Assembly: GCA_900546885.1 (NCBI GenBank)
Contig: UREN01000001.1
Span: forward strand, 6,318-70,317
Origin: an uncultured Oscillospiraceae bacterium
Lineage (GTDB): Bacteria > Bacillota > Clostridia > Oscillospirales > Ruminococcaceae
Reading direction: 5' to 3'
DNA length: 64,000 nt
The notes under the pieces were generated by a model. The model had not been told where the DNA came from. It saw only the letters and a program-made list of their open reading frames with translations, and did no database searches. Each line of letters begins with the position of its first letter. Within the stretch, counting starts at the first letter, position 1. Shown in pieces: positions 13,563 through 60,100 of the stretch. A program made the position numbers and the translations under genes.

Positions 13563-14816
13563 TCAGCCCTCCACGGGTTGTGCCGTGGTGCCGGCTGTTT
13601 TCTCTTGCAGCGTCACATTCAGGCTGAGCACCTGTTTATCACGCACGACCTGCACCTCAATGACATCGCCCACCTGGTGTTCATCCAGCACGGCCGTCAC
13701 ATCACTGGTGGTAGACACCGCTGTGCCATCCACGCTCACGAACAAATCGCCCACTTGCAGGCCCGCCTGCTCTGCGGCCGAGCCCGGGTCTACGCTTTGC
13801 ACATAGACGCCCAGCTGGGAAACGCCTGCCTGCATGGCTGTCTGCAAATCTGTAATGGCAATCACCTGAATGCCCATGGCCGGGCGCCCGCTGACATAGC
13901 CGTTTGCAATCAGCTGCTCTGCCACCTCCATGGCGGTGTTGATGGGCACGGCAAACCCGATGCCTTCTACATTATCACCGCCGGACTTTGCGTTCACAAT
14001 GCCCACCAGTTCGCCCTTTTCGTTGAACAGGCCGCCGCCAGAGTTGCCCGGGCTTACGGCTGCCGAAGTTTGCAGAAGCGTCATGTTTTTGCCTTCCACC
14101 GTAACCTCGCGGTCCAGTGCCGAAATAATGCCGTCCGTCACAGTACCGCCCAGCTCACCCAGCGGGTTGCCCACGGCCACGGCCGTCTCGCCCACCACAA
14201 GGCTGTCGGAATCGCCAATCACGGCGGGCGTCAGGCCGCTGGCCTCTATTTTCAGCACGGCAATGTCCGTTTTGTCATCGGTGCCCACAACGGTGGCATC
14301 GTATTCCTGTCCGTCGCTGGTGGTCACTTTGATGGAGCTTTGGCCCTCTATCACATGGTTATTGGTCAGAATATAGCCGTCTTCCGAGATAATCACGCCA
14401 GAACCCGCGCCCTCTGTGACATACTGTGCAAAAATGCCGTTGGTCTGCACAGAACTGGTGGTCACTTCCACCACGCTGGGCTTTACTTTTTCGGCAATTT
14501 GCGCAATGGTCAGCGCATCGCCGCTGGCAGCGGTTGTGCTGGCGCTGGTGCTGCCGTCGCTCTGCACGGCCTTATATACCACCGGCCCGGACGTGCTGCG
14601 CATCAGTGCAGCGCCCAGCACGCCGCCGCCAACACCTGCCAGCGCGCACACCAGCACCAGTGCAACGGCCGCCAGCGTCTTTTTGGTGCCCGGGCGCTTT
14701 TTCTTCGGCTGCTGGTCTGACGGCTCGGGCCCGCCCATCGAGGGGTCGGGCGACGGTTGTGTATACTGCGGCTGTGCATAGCCGTTCGAATAATCATATT
14801 GCCAATTGTTATCCAT
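13563..14816 (-). CDS. htrA: HtrA-type membrane-anchored serine protease
   Basis: Surface quality-control protease of the S1C (HtrA/DegP) family, 417 residues. A Pro/Gln-rich cytoplasmic N-terminus of about 43 residues precedes a basic stretch and one transmembrane helix (about 45-70). The catalytic triad is visible: His in TNNHVI, Asp in KTDIAVLKI, Ser in SPGNSGG. One PDZ domain follows (GVYVQSVDPGSAAEQAGLQVGD), so the architecture matches B. subtilis HtrA/HtrB. A second paralogue lies at 19573-20769. It appears to be a single-gene unit facing the BtpA gene. Confidence 0.94.
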   Translation of the reverse strand: MDNNWQYDYSNGYAQPQYTQPSPDPSMGGPEPSDQQPKKKRPGTKKTLAAVALVLVCALAGVGGGVLGAALMRSTSGPVVYKAVQSDGSTSASTTAASGDALTIAQIAEKVKPSVVEVTTSSVQTNGIFAQYVTEGAGSGVIISEDGYILTNNHVIEGQSSIKVTTSDGQEYDATVVGTDDKTDIAVLKIEASGLTPAVIGDSDSLVVGETAVAVGNPLGELGGTVTDGIISALDREVTVEGKNMTLLQTSAAVSPGNSGGGLFNEKGELVGIVNAKSGGDNVEGIGFAVPINTAMEVAEQLIANGYVSGRPAMGIQVIAITDLQTAMQAGVSQLGVYVQSVDPGSAAEQAGLQVGDLFVSVDGTAVSTTSDVTAVLDEHQVGDVIEVQVVRDKQVLSLNVTLQEKTAGTTAQPVEG

Positions 14817-15978: not shown

Positions 15979-16407
15979 TTACTGCATGGTGCGCACAAAA
16001 CCATACCGCTCTTTTAAAAAGCCGCGCTTTTCCAAAAAATCCTGGCTGGAGCCATCCACCTTCCGGCAGGATGCCGTAATGGCTGCACAGCCCGCGGCTT
16101 TCAGCTGCGTGGTAAGCGTCACTAAAAGCGCCGTGCCCACATTGCGGCGTCGGCGGTCTTCCCGCACAAAAAAATCCTGAATTACGCCCACCTTTTTGCC
16201 AAGCATCAGGCTGTCGCGCTGCTGTGCGTCTGCAAACCCCACCGCCTCGTCGCCTTCCCAGGCAATCAGCAAACGGCGGGTAGGGTCCTCCAAAGCCAGG
16301 GCATAATAGGCGTCAAACACCTCGCGCGGCGGCGCCGCGCGGCTGTAAAGGCAGACAAGGCCATACAGCGCACGGGCGTCCTCCAACCTTGCTTTTCGTG
16401 CCACCAT
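15979..16407 (-). CDS. GNAT-family N-acetyltransferase
   Basis: 142-residue acyl-CoA-dependent acetyltransferase. The start at 16407 (MVARKARLEDA) marks the beginning of the GNAT fold; a longer upstream open frame has no family support. Motif A is visible as VREDRRRRNVGTALL near residue 95, and the C-terminal DFLEKRGFLKE fits motif B. The acceptor substrate is unknown. It follows rnfA by 97 bases on the same strand, with a 10-G homopolymer in the gap, and could be read through from that operon. Confidence 0.85.
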   Translation of the reverse strand: MVARKARLEDARALYGLVCLYSRAAPPREVFDAYYALALEDPTRRLLIAWEGDEAVGFADAQQRDSLMLGKKVGVIQDFFVREDRRRRNVGTALLVTLTTQLKAAGCAAITASCRKVDGSSQDFLEKRGFLKERYGFVRTMQ

Positions 16408-16504: not shown

Positions 16505-17116
16505 TTAGAAAGCCGCCATGTGGCCGGTAAACCCGTAAATGGCCAGCGCCAGAATGCCAATGTACAAAAGCGTGATGGGCAGCCCGCGGAACATGGCGGG
16601 GATTTTTTCACTCTCCAGCCGCTTTTCGCCGCCCATCACCACCACAACAGCCAGCACATAGCCAATGCCGCTGCCCAGCGCAAAGCCAAGCGTCTGTGCA
16701 AAATTAAAATTTTGCACAGAGCTGATGAGCAATGTGCCCAAAAGACAGGTGTTGAACGTGGCCATGGGCAGCACCGCCACCGCGCGGCGGGCGCCGTCCA
16801 CCCGGAAGATAACCACAGAAAACAGCAGCACCACAAAAAAGGCCACAGCCGCACAGCCAAGGAACACCAGCGGGCGAATATAGTCGCGGTACGGCAGCTG
16901 CGAAATCCACCCGCTGGCAAAATAGCCCAGCGGCGCGCTGATAAGCTGCACCGCGCACAAAAGCGAGCCAAACATCACGGTATCCACCGTGCCGTCATCC
17001 ACCAGTTTCACCACGCGCGAAACACCCAGCGCGCGGGTAAACACGGCGTTTTGTGCAAACACAGCCACCACTGCATATACAAAGAACGAGGCCAGGGCCT
17101 GCAACACTTCTTCCAT
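16505..17116 (-). CDS. rnfA: RnfA-like membrane protein, cofactor cysteine region altered
   Basis: 203-residue, six-helix membrane protein of the RnfA/NqrE family; GGAGGG upstream of ATG 17116. In known RnfA the segment NNFxLxRFLGxCPFLGVS carries a Cys that helps hold a 2Fe-2S centre between RnfA and RnfE. Here the matching segment is QNAVFTRALGVSRVV, with the Cys-Pro-containing stretch missing. The second conserved site, normally TTNCAVLG, reads TFNTCLLG, so the Cys is shifted by one. The C-terminal part (VVVVMGGEKRLESEKIPAMFRGLPI) matches the family well. Last gene of the rpe-rnfD-rnfE-rnfA operon, 2 bases after rnfE. Confidence 0.82.
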   Translation of the reverse strand: MEEVLQALASFFVYAVVAVFAQNAVFTRALGVSRVVKLVDDGTVDTVMFGSLLCAVQLISAPLGYFASGWISQLPYRDYIRPLVFLGCAAVAFFVVLLFSVVIFRVDGARRAVAVLPMATFNTCLLGTLLISSVQNFNFAQTLGFALGSGIGYVLAVVVVMGGEKRLESEKIPAMFRGLPITLLYIGILALAIYGFTGHMAAF

Positions 17117-17118
17117 GT

Positions 17119-17760
17119 TCAGCCCTCCTCTACCCCAAGCTGGTGTTTGGCCGCCGTGACAAAGCCGCGCCACAGCGCCACAAGAACCGCCAGGAAAATG
17201 AAGCCGCCGCTGGGCAGCGTGGCAATGGGCAGAATAGGCTGCTGAAACACCACCACGCCATACAGCGTGCCCGCGCCAATCAGCTCGCGCATCGCACCCA
17301 CAATCAGCATCACCAGCACATAGCCAATGCTGGTAATGATGCCCTTGCGCAGGGCCGTGCCCACGCGCTCGCGCTGCGGGCGCTCGTACCGTTTCAAAAT
17401 GATGGGGTCTGCCACCAAAAGCGGCAGGTACAGCCCCAGGGGTGCAATGTCGGTGGCGGGGAACAGCTGCCCCACACACCAGCGCACACCCACATAGATG
17501 AGCGCCGAGCTGAACGCATAGGTAAGCCCGCGAAAACGAAAATACGAAAACCGGCTCAGCATGGCTGCCAGAATGCGCGTGGGCGTAAGTAAAAGCAAAA
17601 CGGCCACGCCCAGAATCACAGCGTTTTTCAGGCTGGTGGCCGCCACCACCAGGGGCGCCAGGCCAAGGCCCTGCATCACCACAGGGTTGTTCAGAAATAC
17701 GCGGTCGCGCTTGATTTTTCTTCGCAGCTCTTCCGAGCGCCTGCGCTCTTCATTCGTCAT
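17119..17760 (-). CDS. rnfE: RnfE-like membrane protein lacking both conserved cysteines
   Basis: 213-residue membrane protein of the RnfE/NqrD family with a basic cytoplasmic N-terminus. The family signature NPVxVQxLGxCPTLAVT appears as NPVVMQGLGLAPLVVAAT: Cys is replaced by Ala. The second signature, LPLIVVNCIILGRAE in known proteins, appears as LPLLVADPIILKRYE: Cys is replaced by Pro. These two Cys are ligands of the RnfA/RnfE 2Fe-2S centre, so that centre cannot form in the usual way. The rest of the family pattern (GIITSIGYVLVMLIVGAMREL) is kept. The start overlaps the rnfD stop by 4 bases. Confidence 0.82.
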   Translation of the reverse strand: MTNEERRRSEELRRKIKRDRVFLNNPVVMQGLGLAPLVVAATSLKNAVILGVAVLLLLTPTRILAAMLSRFSYFRFRGLTYAFSSALIYVGVRWCVGQLFPATDIAPLGLYLPLLVADPIILKRYERPQRERVGTALRKGIITSIGYVLVMLIVGAMRELIGAGTLYGVVVFQQPILPIATLPSGGFIFLAVLVALWRGFVTAAKHQLGVEEG

Positions 17761-18746
17761 CGCGCCACGCCCCCTTTCCTGTGCTGCCGTGAGGTAAACA
17801 GCTTGTCCAGAAAGCCGGTCAGGGCGTTCACGCCCAAAACAGCGAAACACACGCTGTTGTCATATGTGCCGAAATAGCGGAACATCATGGCCATAAAGCC
17901 CATCAGCAGCCCGTAGGCAAAGTGCGCCTTTGCCACCCGCGGGCGTGTGACAGGCTCGTTTACCAAAAACACGCCTGCAAACAGCAGTGTGCCGGTAAGC
18001 AGCTCATATTTCACAGACTGGTAGCGCATATACAGCTCCTGCCACGGCCAGGCAAGGCCCACGTCGCCAATGCGCGGGAAGAAAAACGCCACGCACACAA
18101 TGGAGAGGAAGAAACCCGCCGGAATGGACACCGTAATATCGCGCCGCACCCACAAATACAGCGCGCAGGCAATAATCACCAGCACAGACGTTGTGCCAAT
18201 GGCGCCCGCATAGTTGCCCAGCACCAAATCCAGCGCGCGAAGGTTGGGTGTGCCGCCCGCGCGCAGCGCCATGGCGGGCGATTCCACCAGCGTGGCATTC
18301 TGCGTGCTGGCAATGGTAAGCTGTGTGAAGGGCGCCGGGTAGCGGAACACCTGCTGCGGCCAGCTTACCGCAACCACCGCATAGCCCAGCGCAGAGGGAT
18401 TGAAGGGGTATTCGCCCCAGCCGCCGAACGCCTCTTTGCCCAGCACCACGCCCACGGCCACAGCCACAATCACAATATAATAGCTTACCGACGCAGGCAG
18501 CATCATGGTGGTGACAAGCGCCATGGGAATGCTGGAATTTTCGGCAGAATCGTGCGTGCGGCCGCGCATCCACGCCGTGAGGTGGTCGCACACCACAGCC
18601 GTGGCCACGGCCACACAGCACATCACAGCGGGCCGCCCGCCGTACAAATAACAGGCCACCACCAAAAGCGGCAGCATCATAAAGATGATGTCACGGTTTG
18701 CCTCGCGCGCGGGCGGCGCACTGGGCAGGCTGTAAGTACCGTTCAT
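17757..18746 (-). CDS. rnfD: RnfD-like membrane protein lacking the FMN-threonine
   Basis: 329-residue, roughly ten-helix membrane protein of the RnfD/NqrB family. Family hallmarks are kept: GKEAFGGWGEYPFNPSALGYA, the swP box VSWPQQVF, DLVLGNYAGAIGTTS, and near the end NEPVTRPRV plus FAVLGVNALTGFLD. The covalent flavin site, normally SGATPL with FMN on Thr, reads SPAMAL at the aligned place, so Thr is replaced by Met and covalent FMN is not expected. It follows rpe by 18 bases. No rnfC, rnfG or rnfB is present here, although typical clusters carry all six genes. Confidence 0.82.
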   Translation of the reverse strand: MNGTYSLPSAPPAREANRDIIFMMLPLLVVACYLYGGRPAVMCCVAVATAVVCDHLTAWMRGRTHDSAENSSIPMALVTTMMLPASVSYYIVIVAVAVGVVLGKEAFGGWGEYPFNPSALGYAVVAVSWPQQVFRYPAPFTQLTIASTQNATLVESPAMALRAGGTPNLRALDLVLGNYAGAIGTTSVLVIIACALYLWVRRDITVSIPAGFFLSIVCVAFFFPRIGDVGLAWPWQELYMRYQSVKYELLTGTLLFAGVFLVNEPVTRPRVAKAHFAYGLLMGFMAMMFRYFGTYDNSVCFAVLGVNALTGFLDKLFTSRQHRKGGVAR

Positions 18747-18764: not shown

Positions 18765-19433
18765 TCAGATTTTTGCCGCTTCACAGGCGGCGCGCAAAGC
18801 CTTCACCGCAGCGGCAGGGTCTGGCGCGCCAAACACGGCGCTGCCCGCCACCAGCGCGTTCGCGCCCGCGGCGGCGCACTGGGCGCCGGTGGCCTCCTGA
18901 ATGCCGCCGTCCACTTCCAAAATCAGGCCCTGCTTGCCGCGCGCTTCGGCCGCGCTGTGCAAAAAGCGCAGCTTGTCCAGCGCCTGCGGCATAAACTTCT
19001 GGCCGCCAAAGCCAGGCTCTACACTCATCACCAGCACAAGGTCCAGCTCGTCCAAATACGGCAGCACCGCTTCGGGCGAAGTGGCCGGCTTGATGGAAAG
19101 CCCCGCCAGCACGCCCTGCGCGCGGATGGCGCGCAGCGTCTGGCGCACGTCGCTTTTTGCCTCCAGATGAAAGGTGATGGCGTTCGCCCCCGCCTTTGCA
19201 AACTGGGGAACATACTCCAGCGGGCGCTCAATCATCAAATGCACATCATAAAAAGCGTCCAGGTCTTTGGCAAGCCCCGCCAGCACAGGGATGCCCAACG
19301 AGATGTTCGGCACAAAAATGCCGTCCATCACGTCCACATGCAGCATGTCGGCCCCTGCCTGCACCACGCGCCGGCAGCTCTCGCCAAGCCTTGCAAAATC
19401 TGCCGACAAAATGGAAGGTGATATCCGTATCAT
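18765..19433 (-). CDS. rpe: Ribulose-phosphate 3-epimerase
   Basis: Interconverts ribulose 5-phosphate and xylulose 5-phosphate in the pentose phosphate pathway; cytosolic TIM barrel, 222 residues, full length. Family signature at the N-terminus (ISPSILSADFARLG, catalytic metal-site region) and HVDVMDGIFVPNISLG with the catalytic Asp; VMSVEPGFGGQKF and the second catalytic Asp in EVDGGI follow; the phosphate-binding AGSAVFG is near the end. It opens an operon with the three Rnf-like genes, an unusual pairing; the gene is more often found near rsgA/prkC. Confidence 0.96.
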   Translation of the reverse strand: MIRISPSILSADFARLGESCRRVVQAGADMLHVDVMDGIFVPNISLGIPVLAGLAKDLDAFYDVHLMIERPLEYVPQFAKAGANAITFHLEAKSDVRQTLRAIRAQGVLAGLSIKPATSPEAVLPYLDELDLVLVMSVEPGFGGQKFMPQALDKLRFLHSAAEARGKQGLILEVDGGIQEATGAQCAAAGANALVAGSAVFGAPDPAAAVKALRAACEAAKI

Positions 19434-19572: not shown

Positions 19573-20769
19573 TTAGCCCTCTTCCAGGCTCTCTACCAGG
19601 GCGGCATCCACCTCTATGACGCTGCCGCTGCCATATTTCTGCACTTTCAGGTGCACAGTTTCGCCCAGCTTATGGCTCTGCACCACGGCGCTCAGGTCCG
19701 CCGCGGTCTCCATCACCTGGCCGTCCGCTTCCAGGATGATATCCCCCACCGTCACATCACTGCGCACAAGGTCGCTGTTGGCGGCAATTTCCGAGATGTA
19801 AAGCCCCTGTGCGGGCAAGCCATTGGGCGGGCCGTTCACGCCCGTGAGGGCGATGACGGTTACGCCAAGCACGCCGCGGTCCCGCACATAGCCGTATGCA
19901 ATCAGGTTTTCCACCACAGGCTGCGCGGTGCGCGTGGGGATGGCAAAGCAGATGCCCTCAAAAAAGGCGCTGTTCATGCGGGCAGAGTTGATGCCCACCA
20001 CCTGGCCAAAGCGGTTTACCAGCGCGCCGCCGGAGTTGCCGGGGTTGATGGCCGCATCCGTCTGAATCAGCGACATGGTGACGTCGCGGCCGCCAACGGT
20101 GACTGTAACCTCCCGGTCCAGCCCAGAGATGACCCCCTGGGTCACCGTCCCGTCAAATTGCCCGGCGGCATTGCCAATGGCCACAGCGCGCTCGCCCACG
20201 GCAAGGGCGCCGGAATCGCCGAATTCCGCGGGCACAAGGCCTTCCCCGGCCACTTTAATTACCGCAAGGTCTGTTTTTTCGTCCACGCCAATTATGCGCG
20301 CGTCCATCTCGGTGCCGTCGGCAAACAGCACATTGATGCCGGACGCCCCCTCCACCACATGGGCGTTGGTAATGATATACCCGTCTTGCGTCAGCACAAC
20401 ACCGCTGCCCATGGAAGAAGGCGCGAGGGAATCCTGCTCATAAATATGAACAGACACCACACTGGGCGCCACGCGCTGGGCAATTTCCGCCGTGGTGAGG
20501 CCGCCATCGGCCGTCTCTGGCAAATCGTCCAGCTGCATGGTCACAGGCTTTTCGCCGCCGGCGTCCGGCTGGCTGGCCGGCACCCCGGCGGCAAGCCGCC
20601 ACACCAGGCCACCCAGGGCCACAATGGCCGCCAGAGCCAGGCACAGCAGCGTCACCGTCACGCTCAGCGCCCAGCGCGGCGTGTGCGTGTGGCGCGGCCG
20701 GGTGCCCTGTGCGCCGTGCACCGGCGCAGCCTCTTCACTGCCCGTCTGCCGGGTCTGCTCCTGCTCCAT
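19573..20769 (-). CDS. htrA: HtrA-type membrane-anchored serine protease (second copy)
   Basis: 398 residues: cytoplasmic N-terminus, one transmembrane helix (about residues 33-60), then an S1C protease domain with His in TNAHVV, Asp in KTDLAVIKV and Ser in NPGNSGG, and a C-terminal PDZ domain (YISEIAANSDLVRSDVTVGD). It is the third gene of a response regulator/histidine kinase/protease operon; its first 35 bases overlap the end of the kinase gene, which implies translational coupling. Operons of this make-up (like YycFG/HtrA or CssRS/HtrA) respond to cell-envelope or secretion stress; that role is inferred. Confidence 0.93.
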   Translation of the reverse strand: MEQEQTRQTGSEEAAPVHGAQGTRPRHTHTPRWALSVTVTLLCLALAAIVALGGLVWRLAAGVPASQPDAGGEKPVTMQLDDLPETADGGLTTAEIAQRVAPSVVSVHIYEQDSLAPSSMGSGVVLTQDGYIITNAHVVEGASGINVLFADGTEMDARIIGVDEKTDLAVIKVAGEGLVPAEFGDSGALAVGERAVAIGNAAGQFDGTVTQGVISGLDREVTVTVGGRDVTMSLIQTDAAINPGNSGGALVNRFGQVVGINSARMNSAFFEGICFAIPTRTAQPVVENLIAYGYVRDRGVLGVTVIALTGVNGPPNGLPAQGLYISEIAANSDLVRSDVTVGDIILEADGQVMETAADLSAVVQSHKLGETVHLKVQKYGSGSVIEVDAALVESLEEG

Positions 20770-22264
20770 CTTCCGGCCCCCCTTTCAGCCTTTCCGGCCC
20801 TGTTTTCTCTTTTTCGCCCTTTTCTCGGCGCTTTTGCGGTTTCTGCCCCGCGGGAAGCGTGAACAGGAACTCTGTATACTCGCCCGCTTTGCTGTCGGCC
20901 CATATCTTCCCGCCGGACAAATTCACCAGCACCTTGCAGATATGCAGGCCCAGCCCGGCGCCGGATGTGTTCAGCCCGCGGCTTTTGTCCTCTTTATAAA
21001 ACCGGTCGAACACATGGGGCAGCGCCTCGGGCGCAATGCCCTCGCCCGTGTTGCGCACGGCCACGGTGACAGCGCCCTTGCTTTGCGTGACAGAAAAGCG
21101 GATTTCGCCGCCCACGCCGCAGAATTTGATGGCGTTATCCACCAGGTTGTACACCACCTGGTACACAAGGTCTTCATCGGCATACACCATCGTTTTGGAG
21201 GGCGCAAAGCCCGTAATTTGGATGCTGTTTGCCTCAATGCGCTGCTCGGCAGCGAACACCACGCCGGTGATGGTTTGCCAGATGTCATAGCTGTGGGCGT
21301 TCACTTTATATTCGCCCGCCTCCAGCTTTGTGATGTCCAGCATATTTTTGATAAGCCGCGTCAGGCGGCCCACTTCCTGCGAGACAATCTCCAGATAATG
21401 CTGGTGGTTCTCGGGCGGGATGGTTCCGTCCAGCATCCCATCCACAAAGCCCTTCACAGTCGTCATGGGCGTGCGCAGCTCGTGCGCAATATTGCCCATA
21501 AAGCTGTAGCGCGAAGAATCGATTTTCTCCAAATTTTCCGCCATGCGGTTAAACGTGGCGGCCAGCTGCGCCACCTCATCGTCCCCCTCTACCGGCACCC
21601 GGGCGGCAAAATCGCCGTTGCCGAATTTCTGCGCCGCGTCCGAAATGCGGCGCAGCGGGGTTGTCATGTGCGAGGTAAGCACAATGGACAGCACGCTGGA
21701 CACCAGCAGCATCAGCCCTGCCGACAGAATAAACATGGAAAACAGGTTTGCAATATATTCGTTCAGCCGCCGCGCATCTGAAGAGGCAAAGGCATAGCCG
21801 CTGGCGCCGTTTTCGCCAATGGGCTTGCAGGCCACATAGTGGCGTGTTCCAAACAGCCCGTCCAGGGTTCCAAGCTCGGTATAAGTGCCGCGGCTTGCCG
21901 CGCTGGCCAGCACGCGGGGCGAAATAGCCTGCCCCAGGTAGTTTTCCTCCTCGCCCTGGGTGCTGCACACCACAACCACGCCGTCTGCGTCCGTCAAAAA
22001 GATCTGGCCGCCGGACGCACGCGCCGTAATGAGAATCTCGCGCTTAATGGCCTCCACGGCCTCCTCATCCCCCGGGGCGGCGCTGCCCCCTGCCTCCTGC
22101 AGGATGCGAATGGTGTTGTCTACAGTGGCCAGCAGGTTTTCATCGTTTTCCGTGCGGAAATAGCCCATGGCCAGGTACATCTGAATAAACCACATCAGCG
22201 CCACGCCGCACACCAGCAAGAACGCCGTGGAATAGAAATAGCGCGTGGTAATGCTTTTTCTCAC
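20735..22264 (-). CDS. Sensor histidine kinase
   Basis: 509-residue membrane sensor of a two-component system. An N-terminal transmembrane helix (about 10-30), an extracellular sensor of about 140 residues, a second helix (about 165-190), a HAMP linker, the dimerisation/phosphoacceptor box NIAHELRTPM (His about residue 262), and the ATPase domain with N-box NLVDNAIKF and G-boxes GEGIAPE and GAGLGLHIC. The C-terminal tail is charged and poorly ordered and overlaps the next gene. It should phosphorylate the response regulator encoded 49 bases upstream. The signal sensed is unknown. Confidence 0.93.
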   Translation of the reverse strand: MRKSITTRYFYSTAFLLVCGVALMWFIQMYLAMGYFRTENDENLLATVDNTIRILQEAGGSAAPGDEEAVEAIKREILITARASGGQIFLTDADGVVVVCSTQGEEENYLGQAISPRVLASAASRGTYTELGTLDGLFGTRHYVACKPIGENGASGYAFASSDARRLNEYIANLFSMFILSAGLMLLVSSVLSIVLTSHMTTPLRRISDAAQKFGNGDFAARVPVEGDDEVAQLAATFNRMAENLEKIDSSRYSFMGNIAHELRTPMTTVKGFVDGMLDGTIPPENHQHYLEIVSQEVGRLTRLIKNMLDITKLEAGEYKVNAHSYDIWQTITGVVFAAEQRIEANSIQITGFAPSKTMVYADEDLVYQVVYNLVDNAIKFCGVGGEIRFSVTQSKGAVTVAVRNTGEGIAPEALPHVFDRFYKEDKSRGLNTSGAGLGLHICKVLVNLSGGKIWADSKAGEYTEFLFTLPAGQKPQKRREKGEKEKTGPERLKGGPEDGAGADPADGQ

Positions 22265-22313: not shown

Positions 22314-23003
22314 TCAGTCTTTCACCTCAAATTTATAGCCCACGCCCCAAACGGTCTTCAGGCCCCATGCGTCCGAAGCGCCCTCCAGCTTTTCACGCAG
22401 GCGCTTCACATGTACGTCGATGGTGCGGGAATCGCCATAATATTCAAACCCCCACACCTCGTCCAGCAGCTGGTCGCGCGTGAACACGCGGTTGGGGTGG
22501 CTGGCAAGGTAATACAGCAGCTCCAGCTCTTTGGGCGGGGCCTCTACCGTCTTGCCCTTCACTTTCAGCTCGTAGCGCGCCAGGTCCACCGAGAGGTTGT
22601 CGTATGTGATAAGCCCTTCGCGCGCCTGCTCTGCCGGCGCGCAGCGGCGCAGCACCGCCTTGATGCGCGCCACCACCTCTTTTGAATCAAACGGCTTTAC
22701 CACATAGTCGTCGGCGCCAAGTTCCAGCCCCAGCACCTTGTCAAACGTCTCGCCCTTTGCCGTAAGCATAATCACCGGTGTGTTGCCCTTTTCGCGTATT
22801 TTCCGGCACACTTCCCAGCCGTCCATTTTCGGCATCATCACGTCCAGCAGAACAAGGTTTGGCTTTTCGCGCTCGAACGCCTCGAACGCGGCCTCGCCGT
22901 CATATGCCTGCGTGACGGCATACCCCTCTTTTTCCAGATACAGCCGCAGCAGTTCACAGATATTCTTGTCGTCGTCCACAATCAGGATTTTTTCCCCTGC
23001 CAT
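22314..23003 (-). CDS. OmpR/PhoB-family response regulator
   Basis: 229 residues. The start at 23003 (MAGEKILIVDDD) has AAGGAGG upstream; the open frame extends further but without a ribosome site. The receiver domain carries the acidic pair in IVDDD, the phosphorylated Asp in LLDVMMPKMDG, Thr in MLTAK and Lys in VVKPF. The C-terminal winged helix contains TRDQLLDEVWGFEYYGDSRTIDVHV split as the usual OmpR pattern, ending in TVWGVGYKFE. First gene of the two-component/HtrA operon. A TACAC-N7-GTGTA inverted repeat at 23084-23100 next to its likely -10 could be its own binding site. Confidence 0.94.
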   Translation of the reverse strand: MAGEKILIVDDDKNICELLRLYLEKEGYAVTQAYDGEAAFEAFEREKPNLVLLDVMMPKMDGWEVCRKIREKGNTPVIMLTAKGETFDKVLGLELGADDYVVKPFDSKEVVARIKAVLRRCAPAEQAREGLITYDNLSVDLARYELKVKGKTVEAPPKELELLYYLASHPNRVFTRDQLLDEVWGFEYYGDSRTIDVHVKRLREKLEGASDAWGLKTVWGVGYKFEVKD

Positions 23004-23079
23004 GCCGTCGCCTCCTTTTTTGCACGCCCCGCACACCCGGCGCAGGGCACAAAACACCATGTTATCAAAATACTTTTTC

Positions 23080-23100
23080 ATTATACACGATAATTGTGTA
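23080..23100 (-). promoter_or_regulatory. Likely -10 and inverted repeat upstream of the response regulator
   Basis: Minus-strand TATAAT (23080-23085) overlaps an inverted repeat TACAC-N7-GTGTA (23084-23100). I see no good -35 at 17 bp, which would fit a promoter needing an activator. Confidence 0.45.
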
Positions 23101-39418: not shown

Positions 39419-39495
39419 ATTGTATGATACGTCATGTGCTGTGAGAGGGATTTGAACGCAGCACACCATTGGAGAAAAAGGAGTGTATTCAGATT

Positions 39496-39750
39496 ATGAA
39501 AAAGATGTTAGCCGTTCTGGTGGCTGCCTGTGTTCTGGCGCTGGGCCTTGTTGCCTGCAGCTCTACTACAAGCAGCAGCACGCCTGCTTCCACGTCTTCC
39601 AGCGTGGCCAGCACCAGCGAACCTGCTTCCACCTCTACCAGTGAGCCCGCTTCCACCTCTACCAGCGAGCCCGCTTCTGCTTCCACCAGCGAGTCTGCTT
39701 CCACATCTGAGTCTGGCAGCAGCTCTCTGTCTGCTTCCACAGCCGAGTAA
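39496..39750 (+). CDS. Short Ser/Thr-rich lipoprotein with tandem repeats
   Basis: 84 residues: a basic start (MKKM), a hydrophobic signal of about 17 residues and the lipobox LVAC, then almost only Ser, Thr, Ala, Glu and Pro. AAGGAG lies 11 bases upstream of ATG 39496; TTG 39469 is an alternative start. The mature part is built of ASTSTSEP-like octapeptides and should be extended and unstructured, as a spacer on the cell surface or a glycosylation substrate. I do not recognise a family. It has its own terminator. Confidence 0.75.
   Translation: MKKMLAVLVAACVLALGLVACSSTTSSSTPASTSSSVASTSEPASTSTSEPASTSTSEPASASTSESASTSESGSSSLSASTAE
39622..39693 (+). repeat. Three tandem 24-bp repeats in the lipoprotein gene
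   Basis: Units at 39622-39645, 39646-39669 and a diverged third at 39670-39693, each encoding an eight-residue PASTSTSE-like unit. The first two differ at only two bases, which points to recent duplication. Confidence 0.85.
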
Positions 39751-54135: not shown

Positions 54136-57100
54136 TTATTTCTTCGCGGGCGGGGCGCCTTTGCGCCGCCTGCCCCATGCCAGTGCACCGGCAAAGCCCG
54201 CAAGGCAGGCCGCCAGAAGCCCTGCATACAAAAGCGGGTTGGCGCCGTCCCCTGTTTTTACGATGCCGCCGCCCGGCGGATCCTTCCGGTTTGTGAACAG
54301 CGCCGCCGCCGTGCCGCCTGCAGGGATGGTGCCGCTTTCCCCTGTCTGGGTTGTGGCATAGCCGTCTGCGTTTGCCTCCTGCTCTGCCACGGTATAGCGC
54401 ACGCCGCCGGGCAGGCCCTGTGCCTGCACGCTTTCGCCGTGTTTCAGCGCAAAACCGGCCACGCCGTTGTGGAAGGTCATACCTCCATAAGTGCCGTTGA
54501 CAGAGGTGTCGCTGAGGGTGACGGTGAAGTGGAACGCACGGCTTTTATCGCCCTGGGCGCCCTCCACCTTCTTTTCCACACGCAGCCCGCCCAGGGCCAC
54601 GTTTTCCACCGTGAAGCCTGCCCCGGCGTTTCCGCCGTAAATCACCTCGCCATAGCCGTCCGGCAGAGCCACTTCCTCCACGGTATAGGTGATAAAGCTG
54701 CCGTTTGCATCATACTGCGGCAGGCCGGTGAAGGTGTAGCTCCAGGCGTCGTTTTGCCGTGTCATGCCGCGCACAAGGCGCTGCCACAGGCTGGGCGCGG
54801 CGGTTTCTTCTGCCTCGCCCGCCCCGGATGTCAGAAGCTGGCCGCCCTGCGGGGTAAGGCGCACGCGGGCCGCCTCTGTGCCGTTTGCATACAGCGCTAT
54901 ATCGATGCTGGCCGGGCGTATGCCGGCGGCATTGCCGCTGTCTGTCCACAGTTTTTTCACCGGGATATCTATCACCAGCGTGTTCTTCAGCGCATAGCCC
55001 GTCTGCTGCACCTCATAGCCCGCCACAGGCTCTTCCTTCACCGCATAGGTATACAGGTTGCCCTGTTCGTCTGCAGCAGGCAGCTTGTAATAGGTGTAGC
55101 GCCAAACTTCCGTATCCGTACCGGTCCATACGGGCTGGGCGTCTGTCACCTGTTCCGGCTGGCCGCCCGCGGCAGTGCGCCACAGGGTGAGCGAAATGGC
55201 ATCCGGCCGCAGGCCGGCGGCGTTGCTGCCGTCGTTCCAGGTTTTGGTGCCGCTAAGCTCCTGCAGCCAGGTGTTCGTCACCGTAGTTTTGCCCTGTGCA
55301 TCCTCGTAGTGCACGGCAAAGCAAAAATCCGGGTCCTTCACAGGGCGGCCGCCCACAGAGAGTTCGCGCGCATAATAAGTGTATGCCTGGCCTGCCGCGT
55401 CATATTTGGGCAGGTTTGCAAAGCTGCCCTGCCAGTGGTTTGCCCTGGTGAGCACAAGGGTTTTCTGCCCATCGGCGCCCGCCACCTCTTCCGAAGCGGC
55501 ATCGCCCGGCGTGCCGGTGGTGCGCCACAGGCCCACCACCACATCGCCCTGCTGGGCCTGCGGGGTGCCGTGCCACACCTTTTCCACCGCCAGGCGGGTG
55601 GCTTCCACATTGACATAGCGGAACAGGGGGTACTCTGTGCCGCCCGTTTCTATGGTTGCCTGCTCGCTTGCCTGCTGAAGGTAGCCGCCGGGCAGTGTTT
55701 CTGTTACGCGGTACTGTGTTTTGCCGCCCTGGGCAAGGCTGCTGCCCGGCATGGCCTGCGGCAGGTTTTCCCAGACGGCATTCCACGCCTTGTACTCATA
55801 ATAGGGTGCCTGCGGCTGCGTGTCGGCTGTGCCGTACACCGTCACCTGCGCCAGCTTCGTCCAGGCGCCCCCTTCGGCCAGATATTCCAGCGCAAAGGTG
55901 ACAGGCACCGGCGCAGCCGAGGGATTCCACTGCTTTTCGGCATAGATGCGGGTGGGCCGCAGCGTGTTAGAGACGATTTGGGCGGCATCGTCATACGCCG
56001 CCGTATAGGCGGTGTTGTAAATGGCATTGGCGTCCAGAATGTCGGCCGCATTCACCCGGCCGGCCTGTTCCCGCTGCTGCCAGCCGGTTTGCAGCTCGCG
56101 CACGCGGTAGGCATACTGGCGGCCGCTCTCGTCCGCCTGGGGAAGGCCCGCAACGGCCGCGCTGGCATAGCTTTGCCGGTTTGTGCCATACAGCGTCAGG
56201 GTGAGGTCTTGCTCCGCCCCGTTTTGGTACACGGTCACATTCTCCCAGCTGGCCCCGCCATCTGCCGAGCGCTGGATGACAAAGCTTGCCTCCCAGTCAA
56301 AGCCGGTGCGCCCCGTTTCGGGCCGGGTGCCGTAGGCGTTGCCGCCGTCGCCCACCCATTGCTTTGCCACCGAAAACTCTGTGGTTTCAAGCCGGTTATA
56401 CAGCGCCTGCGTTTTGAACAGGTTGTATTCCGTTTCCGGCTGGTTTTTCCCGTTTGCCCAATAGGCCGGGCTGAACAAACCGGGGCTGAACTCATACTGG
56501 TAAGTGCCCGCGGCCTCATCTTCGTTTACCACCGTGACGGTTTGAACCGCCCCGTTGTATGCAATGCCGGCCTCTACCACACGGTAGCGCAGGTAGGTAA
56601 GCCCGCCCGTGCTGTTTGAAATGACGGACGGCAGGTTTGCGAAGGAATACGTTTTGCCCCACACCGCGCTGTCGTTGATGCGGCCCGTTTGGGTTTGGGT
56701 AAAGGAATAGCTGCCAAAAAGTGCCTGATAGGCCTGCGGAGAAAGCGCCTTTTCAAAATAGGTGCCCGCATCGGCCCACTTTGCCCCGCTGGCCGGTTGG
56801 CCGCCCTTGCCGTCGGCCTCTATCACTTGCAGCTGGAAGGTGACGGCCAAATCAAAGCCAAGGTAATCTTCGGTGATGATGCCGCCTGCGCTGTCCACCC
56901 AGCCTTTGCTGTAAGGTGCGCTGGTAAGGATGGTGTTTGTAAGCGGGCGCATGGTGACGGAAAGGGCGCCGCCCGCCTCGCTGCGGCTTTGTTCGCCCAC
57001 CGTGCCGTTTGCCGGCGACATGGTGTATTCGCTGCCGGCAGGCAGGGTTTCTGTCACCTCATAGCGCCACGGCATGCCGTTGGGGGCATAGCGCTCCAGC

Positions 57101-60100
57101 TCACCGGCCCGTGCGCCTGTGACAGAATAGCGCCAGGTATCCCCTGCCTTGCTTGCTTCGTCCCACACCACTGCATAGCTGCCCGCAGGCATTTCCTCTT
57201 TGGCAATGGCGTTGCCCTGGCCGGGCTGGGCGTCGGCATAGCGGCTTACGGTAAGCGTGACGTCCCCGGGGCGCAGGCCGAACTGGTTGCTGTAATCGCG
57301 CCATTGTTTTGTGCCGGAAAGCGCCACGGTCTCGCGCGCCGGCTGCGGGGCGTTCAGGAAGGTGGCCCCCACATACACTTCGTCTGCCGTCTGCCCGCGG
57401 CCGTTGCCCTCATTCAGGGTAATGCGCACTTTTTCCACAGAAGTTTGCCCCGCATAGCCGGGCTGGCCGCGCAGAATCTCCGGCGTGCCGTCCCCGGGCA
57501 TGCCCCATGTGTCATAGCCGCCCAGGGCCTGTTTGTCTTCCGAGATGGCGTATTGGTACGCTTCGCCGTTGGGCGCATAGATATCCAAATTTTCAAACCG
57601 CAGGGTCACTTCCAGCGGGGCCGTTTTATTTTGTGCCGCCTGGTAGGCCGCTTGCACCTCGGCCGAGCTCCACGTCAGGCGCTGCACGGTCTCTGACGCA
57701 GATGTGGTGCCGTCCTGCGCCCGGTAGGTGCGCGTCAGCACAAAGGTGATGGCTGGGAATGCCTCCGGCTGGCCGCTTGCGTCCATGGGCAGCTCCAGAA
57801 ATTTCTTTACCGCCGTGGCGCCCTTCACGCTTTCATATTTGTTTTCCACAAGGTAGGTGTTGATGACGGGGTCGGCATAGACAAGGCCGCTTTCCGGCTG
57901 TGTGGTGCCGTTTGGCCAGGTGACGCTGTTTTCCTTCAGGGTATAGAGGTACAGCCTGCCTTCCGCGTCATATTGGGGCAGCCGGGCCGCACCCGGCTGT
58001 TCGGGCGAAATGGTGATGGCGCCGTTCTCTGCCGTCATAATATTTCCGCCTTCATATTCCATGCGGAACCGGTATGAGCCGTTCTGGTATACGCTGGCCC
58101 ATTCCTCCACCTTCAGCGAGGCCACCTGCACGGCCTCGGCCCCGCTTTGCTGTGCCAAACGGCGGTACAGGCCAAACTCCACATTGGGAAGGTCTACGCG
58201 GGGGTAGCCCGCGGGCAGGGACGCCCACAATTTCTGGCCCTGTACGGTGACGGTTTGATAAATGGCATTGGTAAAGGTGCCCGTTTCACGCAAAGCATAC
58301 TTCGCCGCGGCATCATTGCCTGCGCCGGAAACCAGGGCGAGGTCCAGCGTGTCGCCCTGCTGTACATCTTCGTTCAATTCCAGCGCTGTGCCAATGTCCC
58401 GCAGGCTGCCGCGCTCACCCATGCCGTATGCAACGGGCAGGTAATCAAAGCTCTGCGCGTCCACGGTGGTGTGCTCTACGGCATAATAGATAATCTCATA
58501 CCCATATTCGTCATACTTGGGCAGGCCGCTCAATTCCGCCACCCAATATTCGGCCAGGCTGGTGCCCTCTTCGTCCAAATACGTCCATTTGTAATTTGCC
58601 TGGCGCAGCGACGCCTGCGGGTTTCCGTTTTCATCGTGCCGCACCTGATAAATGTCCAAATAGATGTCTGGCCGTTGGCCCGCCTCATATATGGCGTCAT
58701 CTTTCCAAATTTTGTTCCAGACGGCCGTTTTTGTGCCGCTGAGGCTGTTTGTCACCTGCTGGAACTGTTTGTCTGCCTCGCGGTGCCCGCTTGCCTCATA
58801 CTGCGGCTCTCCATAAGCGGTGCGGTAATCGGCCAAAAGGTTCTGCAGGCCTTCGGGAAGCTGAGACACCTCCACTTCTTCGCCGTCTGCATTCAGCCAC
58901 ACCTCGCGCACGGTGTACTGCACCGCGGCGCCGGTGCGGTCGTATTTGGGCAGTTCGAAAAATTCATAGGTGCTTTCTTTTTGGGTAAAGTCCAGCTTCT
59001 GGCGGGACGCCACAGGGGCCCCCGTGCTGTCTGCAATGGGCACCTGGTCTGCCGGGCTGCCAATTGCCACGGTGTCGCCGCCCGCCCGGCCGCGGCTGAT
59101 GGCATAATACGCCGGCACGTCCTGCCGGGCAAATTCCAGCTGCATTACAAGGGAATATCCGCTTTCTTCGGCCTGCTGTGCAATTTGCGCACGCAGCTCG
59201 CCCGTTCCGTCCTGCCATGTCTTGGTGGCTGTGAAATCGATATTGCCAAAGCGGCGGTTGGCCGCCGTATAAAAGGTGACGCCCTGCAGCACTTCATGGC
59301 TGTAGGTAACCTCGTAACGGTGATAATCGGTTTCATAGGGGATGGCCGTATAAGTATCGTCTTCCGGGCCGTCATATTCCTCTGGCGCCTGCGGCTGTGT
59401 GAAATTTGCAGGGTCTTCCGTAAGCGGCACTGGTGTGCCGCCCACCTGAGTTTCCAGAATATAGACGTCCTCCGGTGCGCGCTGGCCAATGCCCACCCAG
59501 GCATACCACACACCGCCGCCCAGGGTAACTTCGTTCACCTTTTCGTTGGTGGCGCGGTCGTACACGGCCACGGTAACGGCCTCGCGGTGCGAGATATCGC
59601 TGTCGTCCACCCAGCCTTTCCGCACCATAATGCGGTTGCCCTCGCCCGGGCCGTTGTACACTGTGGTGTGGTAGCCCTGTTCGTCGCGCTCTGTTTTGTA
59701 AGTAGGAATGAAATTGGCCGTGCCGCCCTGTTCCAGCAGCAGATACTGATATTGTCCGCCGTTCTCGTCAAACTCGTCCAGCGGCGTCACCGTTGCCTGC
59801 CAGGGCGCTGTCTCCTGTGCCAAGATGCCCAGCGCCTTGTTCACCACCGTGGGCTCTGCGTCTGCCGTGCCGTCCACGGAAAAAACCGCCACCGGCTCGC
59901 CCAGTGCTTCGCCGTTTCGCATGCGGTAAATGGCAAATGTGGCCGTGGCCCCCTGCGGGGGCTGTGTTTCCCCGTTTTCATCCAGCCACACCTTTGCCAC
60001 TTCGTATTGAATGGTGTTGGCAATGGTGTTTGTCACCGTGGTGGAATACCCCTTGCCCGCGCTGCCCGCCTGCCGGATGGCCGAGCGGTACTGCACGGTG

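Follow-up and report, generated by a model that had tools for sequence, protein, structure and literature searches.

In published structures, the cysteines of RnfA and RnfE surround one metal site. The ion path through Rnf is disputed, as is its driving by the charge of the cluster: the available portions of a study on A. woodii propose RnfA and RnfE as the path for Na+, with the reduced cluster drawing Na+ in, and describe Lys32 of RnfA as meeting the cluster of RnfB (PMC11889175), whereas corresponding portions of a rival study place the path in RnfD (PMC9588780). NQR uses a cluster of the A/E type together with covalent FMN (excerpts of PMC9588780 and PMC12174285), and two-subunit flavinylated systems that resemble Nqr and Rnf contain an RnfD-like subunit (PMC8238504, in excerpt) without the flavinylation threonine (PMC10979944, in excerpt). 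A natural membrane core without redox residues can test the ion path of Rnf directly.

We analysed a window of 64,000 nucleotides from an uncultured Oscillospiraceae bacterium (contig UREN01000001.1 of assembly GCA_900546885.1), in which three genes on the reverse strand encode an RnfD-like membrane subunit of 329 residues (17757-18746; PF03116, 209 bits; ATG start and stop codon verified), an RnfE-like membrane subunit of 213 residues (17119-17760; PF02508, 98 bits) and an RnfA-like membrane subunit of 203 residues (16505-17116; PF02508, 66 bits). All three frames of this trio are intact and coupled, D and E overlapping in ATGA and E and A being separated by 2 nt, and these coordinates bear out the original prediction of intact frames that overlap or abut. 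Scores with the NCBIfam models fell far under their cut-offs (rnfD 141 of 207, rnfE 68 of 213 and rnfA 63 of 229 bits), as expected for a diverged branch. PF03116 was the only Pfam domain in the RnfD-like protein, the RnfA-like protein was 95% identical to an RnfA named Ruthenibacterium, which makes a relative of that genus the probable source of the window, and chains of solved Rnf and Nqr structures matched most of the length of D, E and A in a sequence search. The top fold matches of the AlphaFold models were RnfD/NqrB chains for D (mean pLDDT 81) and RnfE/NqrD chains for E (mean pLDDT 88), the E model being less confident around its former ligand positions, in blocks of 75-77.

The gene for ribulose-phosphate 3-epimerase, rpe (18765-19433, reverse strand; PF00834), lies 18 nt ahead of D, and a gene for a GNAT acetyltransferase (15979-16407, reverse strand; PF00583) lies downstream of A. 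Genes for a histidine kinase (20735-22264) and a response regulator (22314-23081), both on the reverse strand and identified with Pfam, are syntenic neighbours upstream. One scan of genome contigs yielded a first set of 59 loci from Ruthenibacterium, Faecalibacterium, Gemmiger, Fournierella, Anaerofilum, Pygmaiobacter and Subdoligranulum, along with one record labelled Ruminococcus and others labelled only as Ruminococcaceae, Oscillospiraceae or Clostridia. The rpe gene was found upstream of D in all 59 fetched loci, and rpe, D, E and A followed in the same order on one strand in 58, the contig of the 59th (L047) stopping inside D. Upstream of D, the kinase was matched by tblastn in 53/59 loci and the response regulator in 52/59. 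A GNAT match was seen in 8/59 loci; both genes that had been named as bounds do adjoin the trio, but GNAT is a local neighbour and rpe the conserved one. In the window's clade, no fetched locus had an rnfB, rnfC or rnfG gene adjoining the trio, in agreement with the earlier statement that only D, E and A are present. Two HtrA-type proteases (trypsin-like with PDZ; 13563-14816 and 19573-20769, both on the reverse strand) flank the stretch from rpe to GNAT in the window, and an open frame of 2976 residues at 54136-63066 (reverse strand), with six Cna_B stretches and DUF7601, resembles a giant surface protein.

We estimated dN/dS from pairs with a dS of 0.05-0.5. The median for D was 0.14 over 32 pairs (range 0.07-0.23); for E it was 0.19 over 51 pairs, with values reaching 0.83, and for A it was 0.24 over 60 pairs, with values reaching 0.77. 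The high values for E and A may be explained by some automatic starts being too long. These medians, and frames that are coupled in all 58 loci reaching them, support the earlier claim that the trio is under selection. Residues conserved across the clade are also present in the trio proteins.

Ligand columns were read from alignments of trio-type proteins with standard proteins of the same and related genomes. In the window, the two cysteine ligands of RnfE are replaced by Ala35 (codon 17656-17658) and Pro119 (codon 17404-17406), as had been claimed, and those of RnfA by Ser33 (codon 17018-17020) and Thr123 (codon 16748-16750). The CPF segment of RnfA, thought at first to be missing, is in fact substituted, with GICPF reading GVSRV. 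A cysteine at position 124 does lie beside Thr123, as the proposed shift of the second cysteine by one residue would have it, but this cysteine is missing in many relatives. Two repeats (L123 of L026, and L124 of L093) were dropped from the ligand counts, and a spurious RnfE row (L105, 25 bits) was left out, although it stays in the RnfE tree. The first cysteine column of RnfE then held Ala 69, Thr 8, Tyr 5, Pro 4, Val 2, Ser 1 and Gly 1, and the second Pro 59, Ser 20, Gly 8, Ala 1, Thr 1 and Arg 1 (n=90 for each), neither cysteine being kept in any of the 90 aligned trio loci. For RnfA, the first column held Ser 75, Asp 7, Gly 3, Thr 2, Phe 1 and Ala 1, with the cysteine kept in 0/89 aligned trio loci, and the second held Ser 31, Cys 29, Thr 27, Val 1 and Leu 1 (n=89). 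Trio loci consequently have either none (60/89) or one (29/89) of the four [2Fe-2S] cysteines of A and E, and the alignment of trio loci revealed no close relative in which the ligands were restored.

All four cysteines were kept in 32/32 fully readable standard sets (8 of the 40 standard RnfA rows stop before the second cysteine), and both RnfE cysteines in 41/42 standard rows. The exception, L134 (2524-105), is an Rnf cluster in which genes for C, D, G or B are present but RnfE is without both cysteines, so that the split between trio and standard ligands is imperfect. Two other full Rnf clusters, from the phylum sample, also had an RnfE without the second cysteine (L145 and L148), the first RnfA cysteine of L145 being shifted by one, and these three clusters may represent independent losses of ligands.

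The flavin site of RnfD was reported in the original prediction to have changed from SGATPL to SPAMAL. Loss of the threonine was confirmed, but the residue in its column in the family alignment is Ser156 of ESPAMAL (codon 18279-18281) and not methionine, and the local register is uncertain, since pairwise and multiple alignments place the column differently. This column held S 41, G 33, T 11, A 5, N 2 and L 1 in the trio clade (n=93), and threonine in 45/45 standard rows; three D rows that had been scored as ligand-less (L132, L137 and L142) were standard and were reassigned. A genuine Thr/Ser acceptor at this column was considered and rejected, as the residue is unconserved across the clade. 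Ligand-less RnfD-like genes with no adjoining E or A were also seen in two genomes of 0.9 and 0.7 Mb (L094 and L098), each of which had one further match to the Rnf-Nqr family on another contig. Three loci read rnfC-D-G with the FMN threonine kept and no adjoining E, A or B (L101, L105 and L102, the last a 4-kb contig).

We then compared residues of the flavin pocket and of the candidate ion path, using positions given in the available parts of reports on C. tetanomorphum RnfD (PMC9588780) and A. woodii RnfA and RnfE (PMC11889175); the counts include the two repeat loci and the spurious RnfE row L105. In trio RnfD, the column of the pocket residue R130 held Tyr 57, Phe 22, Val 7, Ile 5, Leu 3 and Thr 1 (Arg 0/95), and that of E185 held Thr 39, Ala 32, Val 10, Ser 6 and others (Glu 1/95). 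Positions near the riboflavin stay polar, namely N124 (Asn 49 or His 41) and D248 (Glu 50 or Asp 39, 89/95), and the trio RnfD could conceivably still bind a flavin non-covalently. D248 is an ion-path candidate as well, and several further candidates were kept in the other subunits: Arg in 88/93 at R67 of RnfE, Arg (76) or Lys (11) of 93 at R113 of RnfE and Asn in 89/91 at N112 of RnfA. Other positions fit no simple rule of retention: Glu was present in 47/93 at E115 of RnfE, Thr in 34/91 at T110 of RnfA and Pro in 70/91 at P107 of RnfA, and T111 of RnfA was Phe (61) or Leu (21).

The positions next to the old cluster site had also changed. Standard proteins have Asn before the second RnfE cysteine and Pro, Ser or Ala after the first RnfA cysteine (40/40). 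In the trio type this Asn is replaced by Asp or Glu in 66/89 loci, and all 66 loci with the RnfE acid have Arg or His after the old first RnfA cysteine; in the 23/89 loci without the acid, Arg, Lys or His was found at the RnfA position in 11 and not in 12. The acid and base of the window are Asp118 of RnfE (codon 17407-17409) and Arg34 of RnfA (codon 17015-17017). As the A and E cysteines lie around one metal site, their neighbours should be close, and the RnfE acid and the RnfA base may be in contact.

In an RnfD tree of 75 rows, all 52 trio-type rows were found on one side of a branch with support 100/99, and 29 rows with the acid on one side of another with support 100/99, the two loci without E or A beside D (L094 and L098) being set in the no-acid group by default. 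This topology fits a single origin for the trio type and a single origin for the RnfE acid. The pairing of the acid with the base would then reflect one change and not repeated ones. RnfA and RnfE trees from short searches were weak and did not contradict the RnfD tree; support for the standard branch in the E tree was 59 and the acid group needed 2 changes, and the A tree carried a long-branch warning.

Deeper relatives were surveyed in 119 family, 295 order, 391 class and 398 phylum genomes. The order-level survey gave 164 matching genomes, of which a minority was opened. At the class level, 39/391 genomes matched the D profile at E <= 1e-40 and 20 loci were fetched, and at the phylum level 208/398 genomes matched the E profile at E <= 1e-18 and 15 loci were fetched. 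The loci fetched in these two surveys contained no ligand-less sets outside genomes already in the order-level list, and 11 class-level loci (139-159 bits), including L134, were standard clusters. Several deeper relatives read rpe, an RnfC-like gene, D, E, A and a DUF4015 gene, and others were without the RnfC-like or the DUF4015 gene. The tree fits one loss of the RnfC-like gene toward the lineage of the window, with moderate support (85/94).

It is well supported by these alignments that the redox path of Rnf was lost in the trio clade, even as its members retained their fold family and gene order and stayed under purifying selection. The original prediction of an Rnf fold retained for another job is likewise supported, the ligands being unrestored in relatives and the standard set separate. 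The trio would then be a derived Rnf membrane core in which electrons no longer take the path used by Rnf. With the residues of that path gone and several ion-path candidates kept, and with RnfA and RnfE proposed as the Na+ path in A. woodii, a cation may still pass through these two subunits. The best reading of the trio, as an Rnf core uncoupled from redox that moves a cation, is in our judgement an evenly poised proposition; against it, the ion-path residues were defined in a different species, and E115, T110 and T111 are among those not kept. More tentatively, the [2Fe-2S] switch of RnfA and RnfE may have been exchanged for a permanent pair of Asp/Glu and Arg/His, so that a pump once driven by electrons would have become a cation transporter driven by gradients, although the RnfE acid is absent in 23/89 loci. 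Na+ or H+ would pass through the RnfA/RnfE pair by alternating access, with the fixed acid of RnfE, opposed by the base of RnfA, replacing the charge of the reduced cluster. The flux would be driven by ion gradients, as antiport, symport or leak, and not by ferredoxin, and the RnfD-like subunit would either support the A/E pair or itself provide a further path. In deeper relatives with an RnfC-like subunit carrying two 4Fe-4S motifs, this subunit may serve as a redox gate.

The trio could instead be a solute transporter or channel in which D passes a small solute and A and E form a scaffold, perhaps in envelope glycan work with the DUF4015 protein. Loss of the FMN pocket agrees with such a role, as does a match to the DUF4015 profile directly behind A in 41/58 loci of the first set. 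The Pfam model confirmed DUF4015 in 4/4 proteins tested but matched in only 3 of 12 genomes searched, so that many of these genes are diverged or absent, and the window itself gave only a weak hit of 20 bits at 39445-39747. Urea transporters and AmtB followed the Rnf and Nqr chains in the fold search with D, at weak E-values (from 0.0096); however, ordinary RnfD also resembles these channels in the available text of PMC9588780, which predicts such a match. No substrate is indicated, and we regard a solute channel as rather unlikely.

A further alternative is that the standard RnfB, RnfC and RnfG of the same cell assemble with the trio, which would give them an accessory or alternative membrane core and serve in their assembly or regulation. 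For 23 of the 59 loci, the genomes, all of relatives of the window, were searched with profiles for PF03116, PF02508 and rnfC, and 20 contained a second RnfD with further RnfE and RnfA and an adjoining rnfC. The four cysteines and the FMN threonine were kept in all 20 standard copies, in which B and G were assigned by position and length and not by family search (G in 17/20); the automatic pick of the standard RnfC was correct in 11/20, and this impure profile was used solely for gene labels. A standard C, D, E and A set for the trio to join is thus usually at hand, but the trio locus lies apart from rnf in the sampled genomes and is tied to rpe, and the Lys32 of RnfA that docks RnfB is rarely kept (Lys 5/91 and Arg 16, compared to Lys in 35/40 standard rows). 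Moreover, three ruminant-gut MAGs, which may be incomplete, had the trio type and no standard D, E or A (L049-L051). An accessory core is, on this evidence, improbable. A standard set with C, D, E and A elsewhere in the genome, which might have overturned the original prediction, is therefore usually present, but as a separate, ligand-complete copy that does not overturn it. Stand-alone full-length RnfC-type genes in two of the three MAGs without a standard set (L080, 3737-7303; L081, 6001-9495) were considered as partners and rejected, as they adjoin genes for methylenetetrahydrofolate reductase (MTHFR) and DUF5981.

Equally doubtful is that the trio still carries electrons, through a non-covalent flavin in D and, where present, the 4Fe-4S clusters of the RnfC-like protein. 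The polar riboflavin side of D would allow this, and the RnfD-like subunit without the threonine in Nqr/Rnf-like systems is thought to bind flavin non-covalently (PMC10979944, available portion). In 13/13 loci, and likewise in the best 120 of 427 homologues, the RnfC-like proteins keep two CxxCxxCxxxC motifs, and Pfam confirmed two 4Fe-4S motifs in 3/3 proteins tested. These 13 proteins and 120 homologues are, however, all without the GGxGFPT loop. None of the 13 loci has the RnfE acid. A and E are without their cluster, the FMN pocket has lost both R130 and E185, and none of the loci fetched from the window's clade contained an RnfG, RnfB or RnfC-like gene. A functionless, decaying remnant of a duplicated rnf cluster would account for the loss of ligands and of several subunits, but is in effect refuted by conservation, given coupled D, E and A frames in 58/58 loci reaching them, median dN/dS values of 0.14-0.24 and residues conserved across the clade.

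The trio also bears on annotation. A figure legend lists two putative rnf operons of F. duncaniae for NADH:ferredoxin oxidoreductase, one of them being rnfDEA (CG447_09840-830; PMC10781979), and with the same gene set in the same genus this is very probably the same locus. In Faecalibacterium the trio is thus taken for a second Rnf that conserves energy, and models of butyrate producers would then probably give that route too much weight. Ligand loss is unmentioned in the available part of that article, Faecalibacterium does not occur in the available part of a 2025 review of RNF and NQR (PMC12174285), and we found no description of the loss in this clade in the open-access literature, subscription papers being mostly uncovered. 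The original prediction that no function had been described for such a set accordingly holds for the loss of ligands, but not for rnfDEA as listed in that legend.

Among known systems, the two-subunit systems are like the trio in having an RnfD-like subunit without the conserved threonine, but, as far as the published excerpts describe them, they combine a fused NAD-binding domain with an RnfG-like partner and have no A or E, whereas D of the trio has only PF03116. Neither an RnfG-like partner nor a fused NAD-binding domain was seen among the domains of D or the neighbours of the trio (rpe, E, A and GNAT). NqrB, NqrD and NqrE of Na+-NQR match D, E and A of the trio, respectively, but Na+-NQR has further subunits, none of which was seen beside the trio. 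Compared to the Rnf complex RnfABCDGE, the trio is without adjoining B and G, is without C in the window's clade, and has lost the Fe-S and FMN ligands; D, E and A are nonetheless homologous over their length to the subunits of the A. woodii (9ERI) and C. tetanomorphum (7ZC6) complexes, and the models of D and E indicate that the fold is kept.
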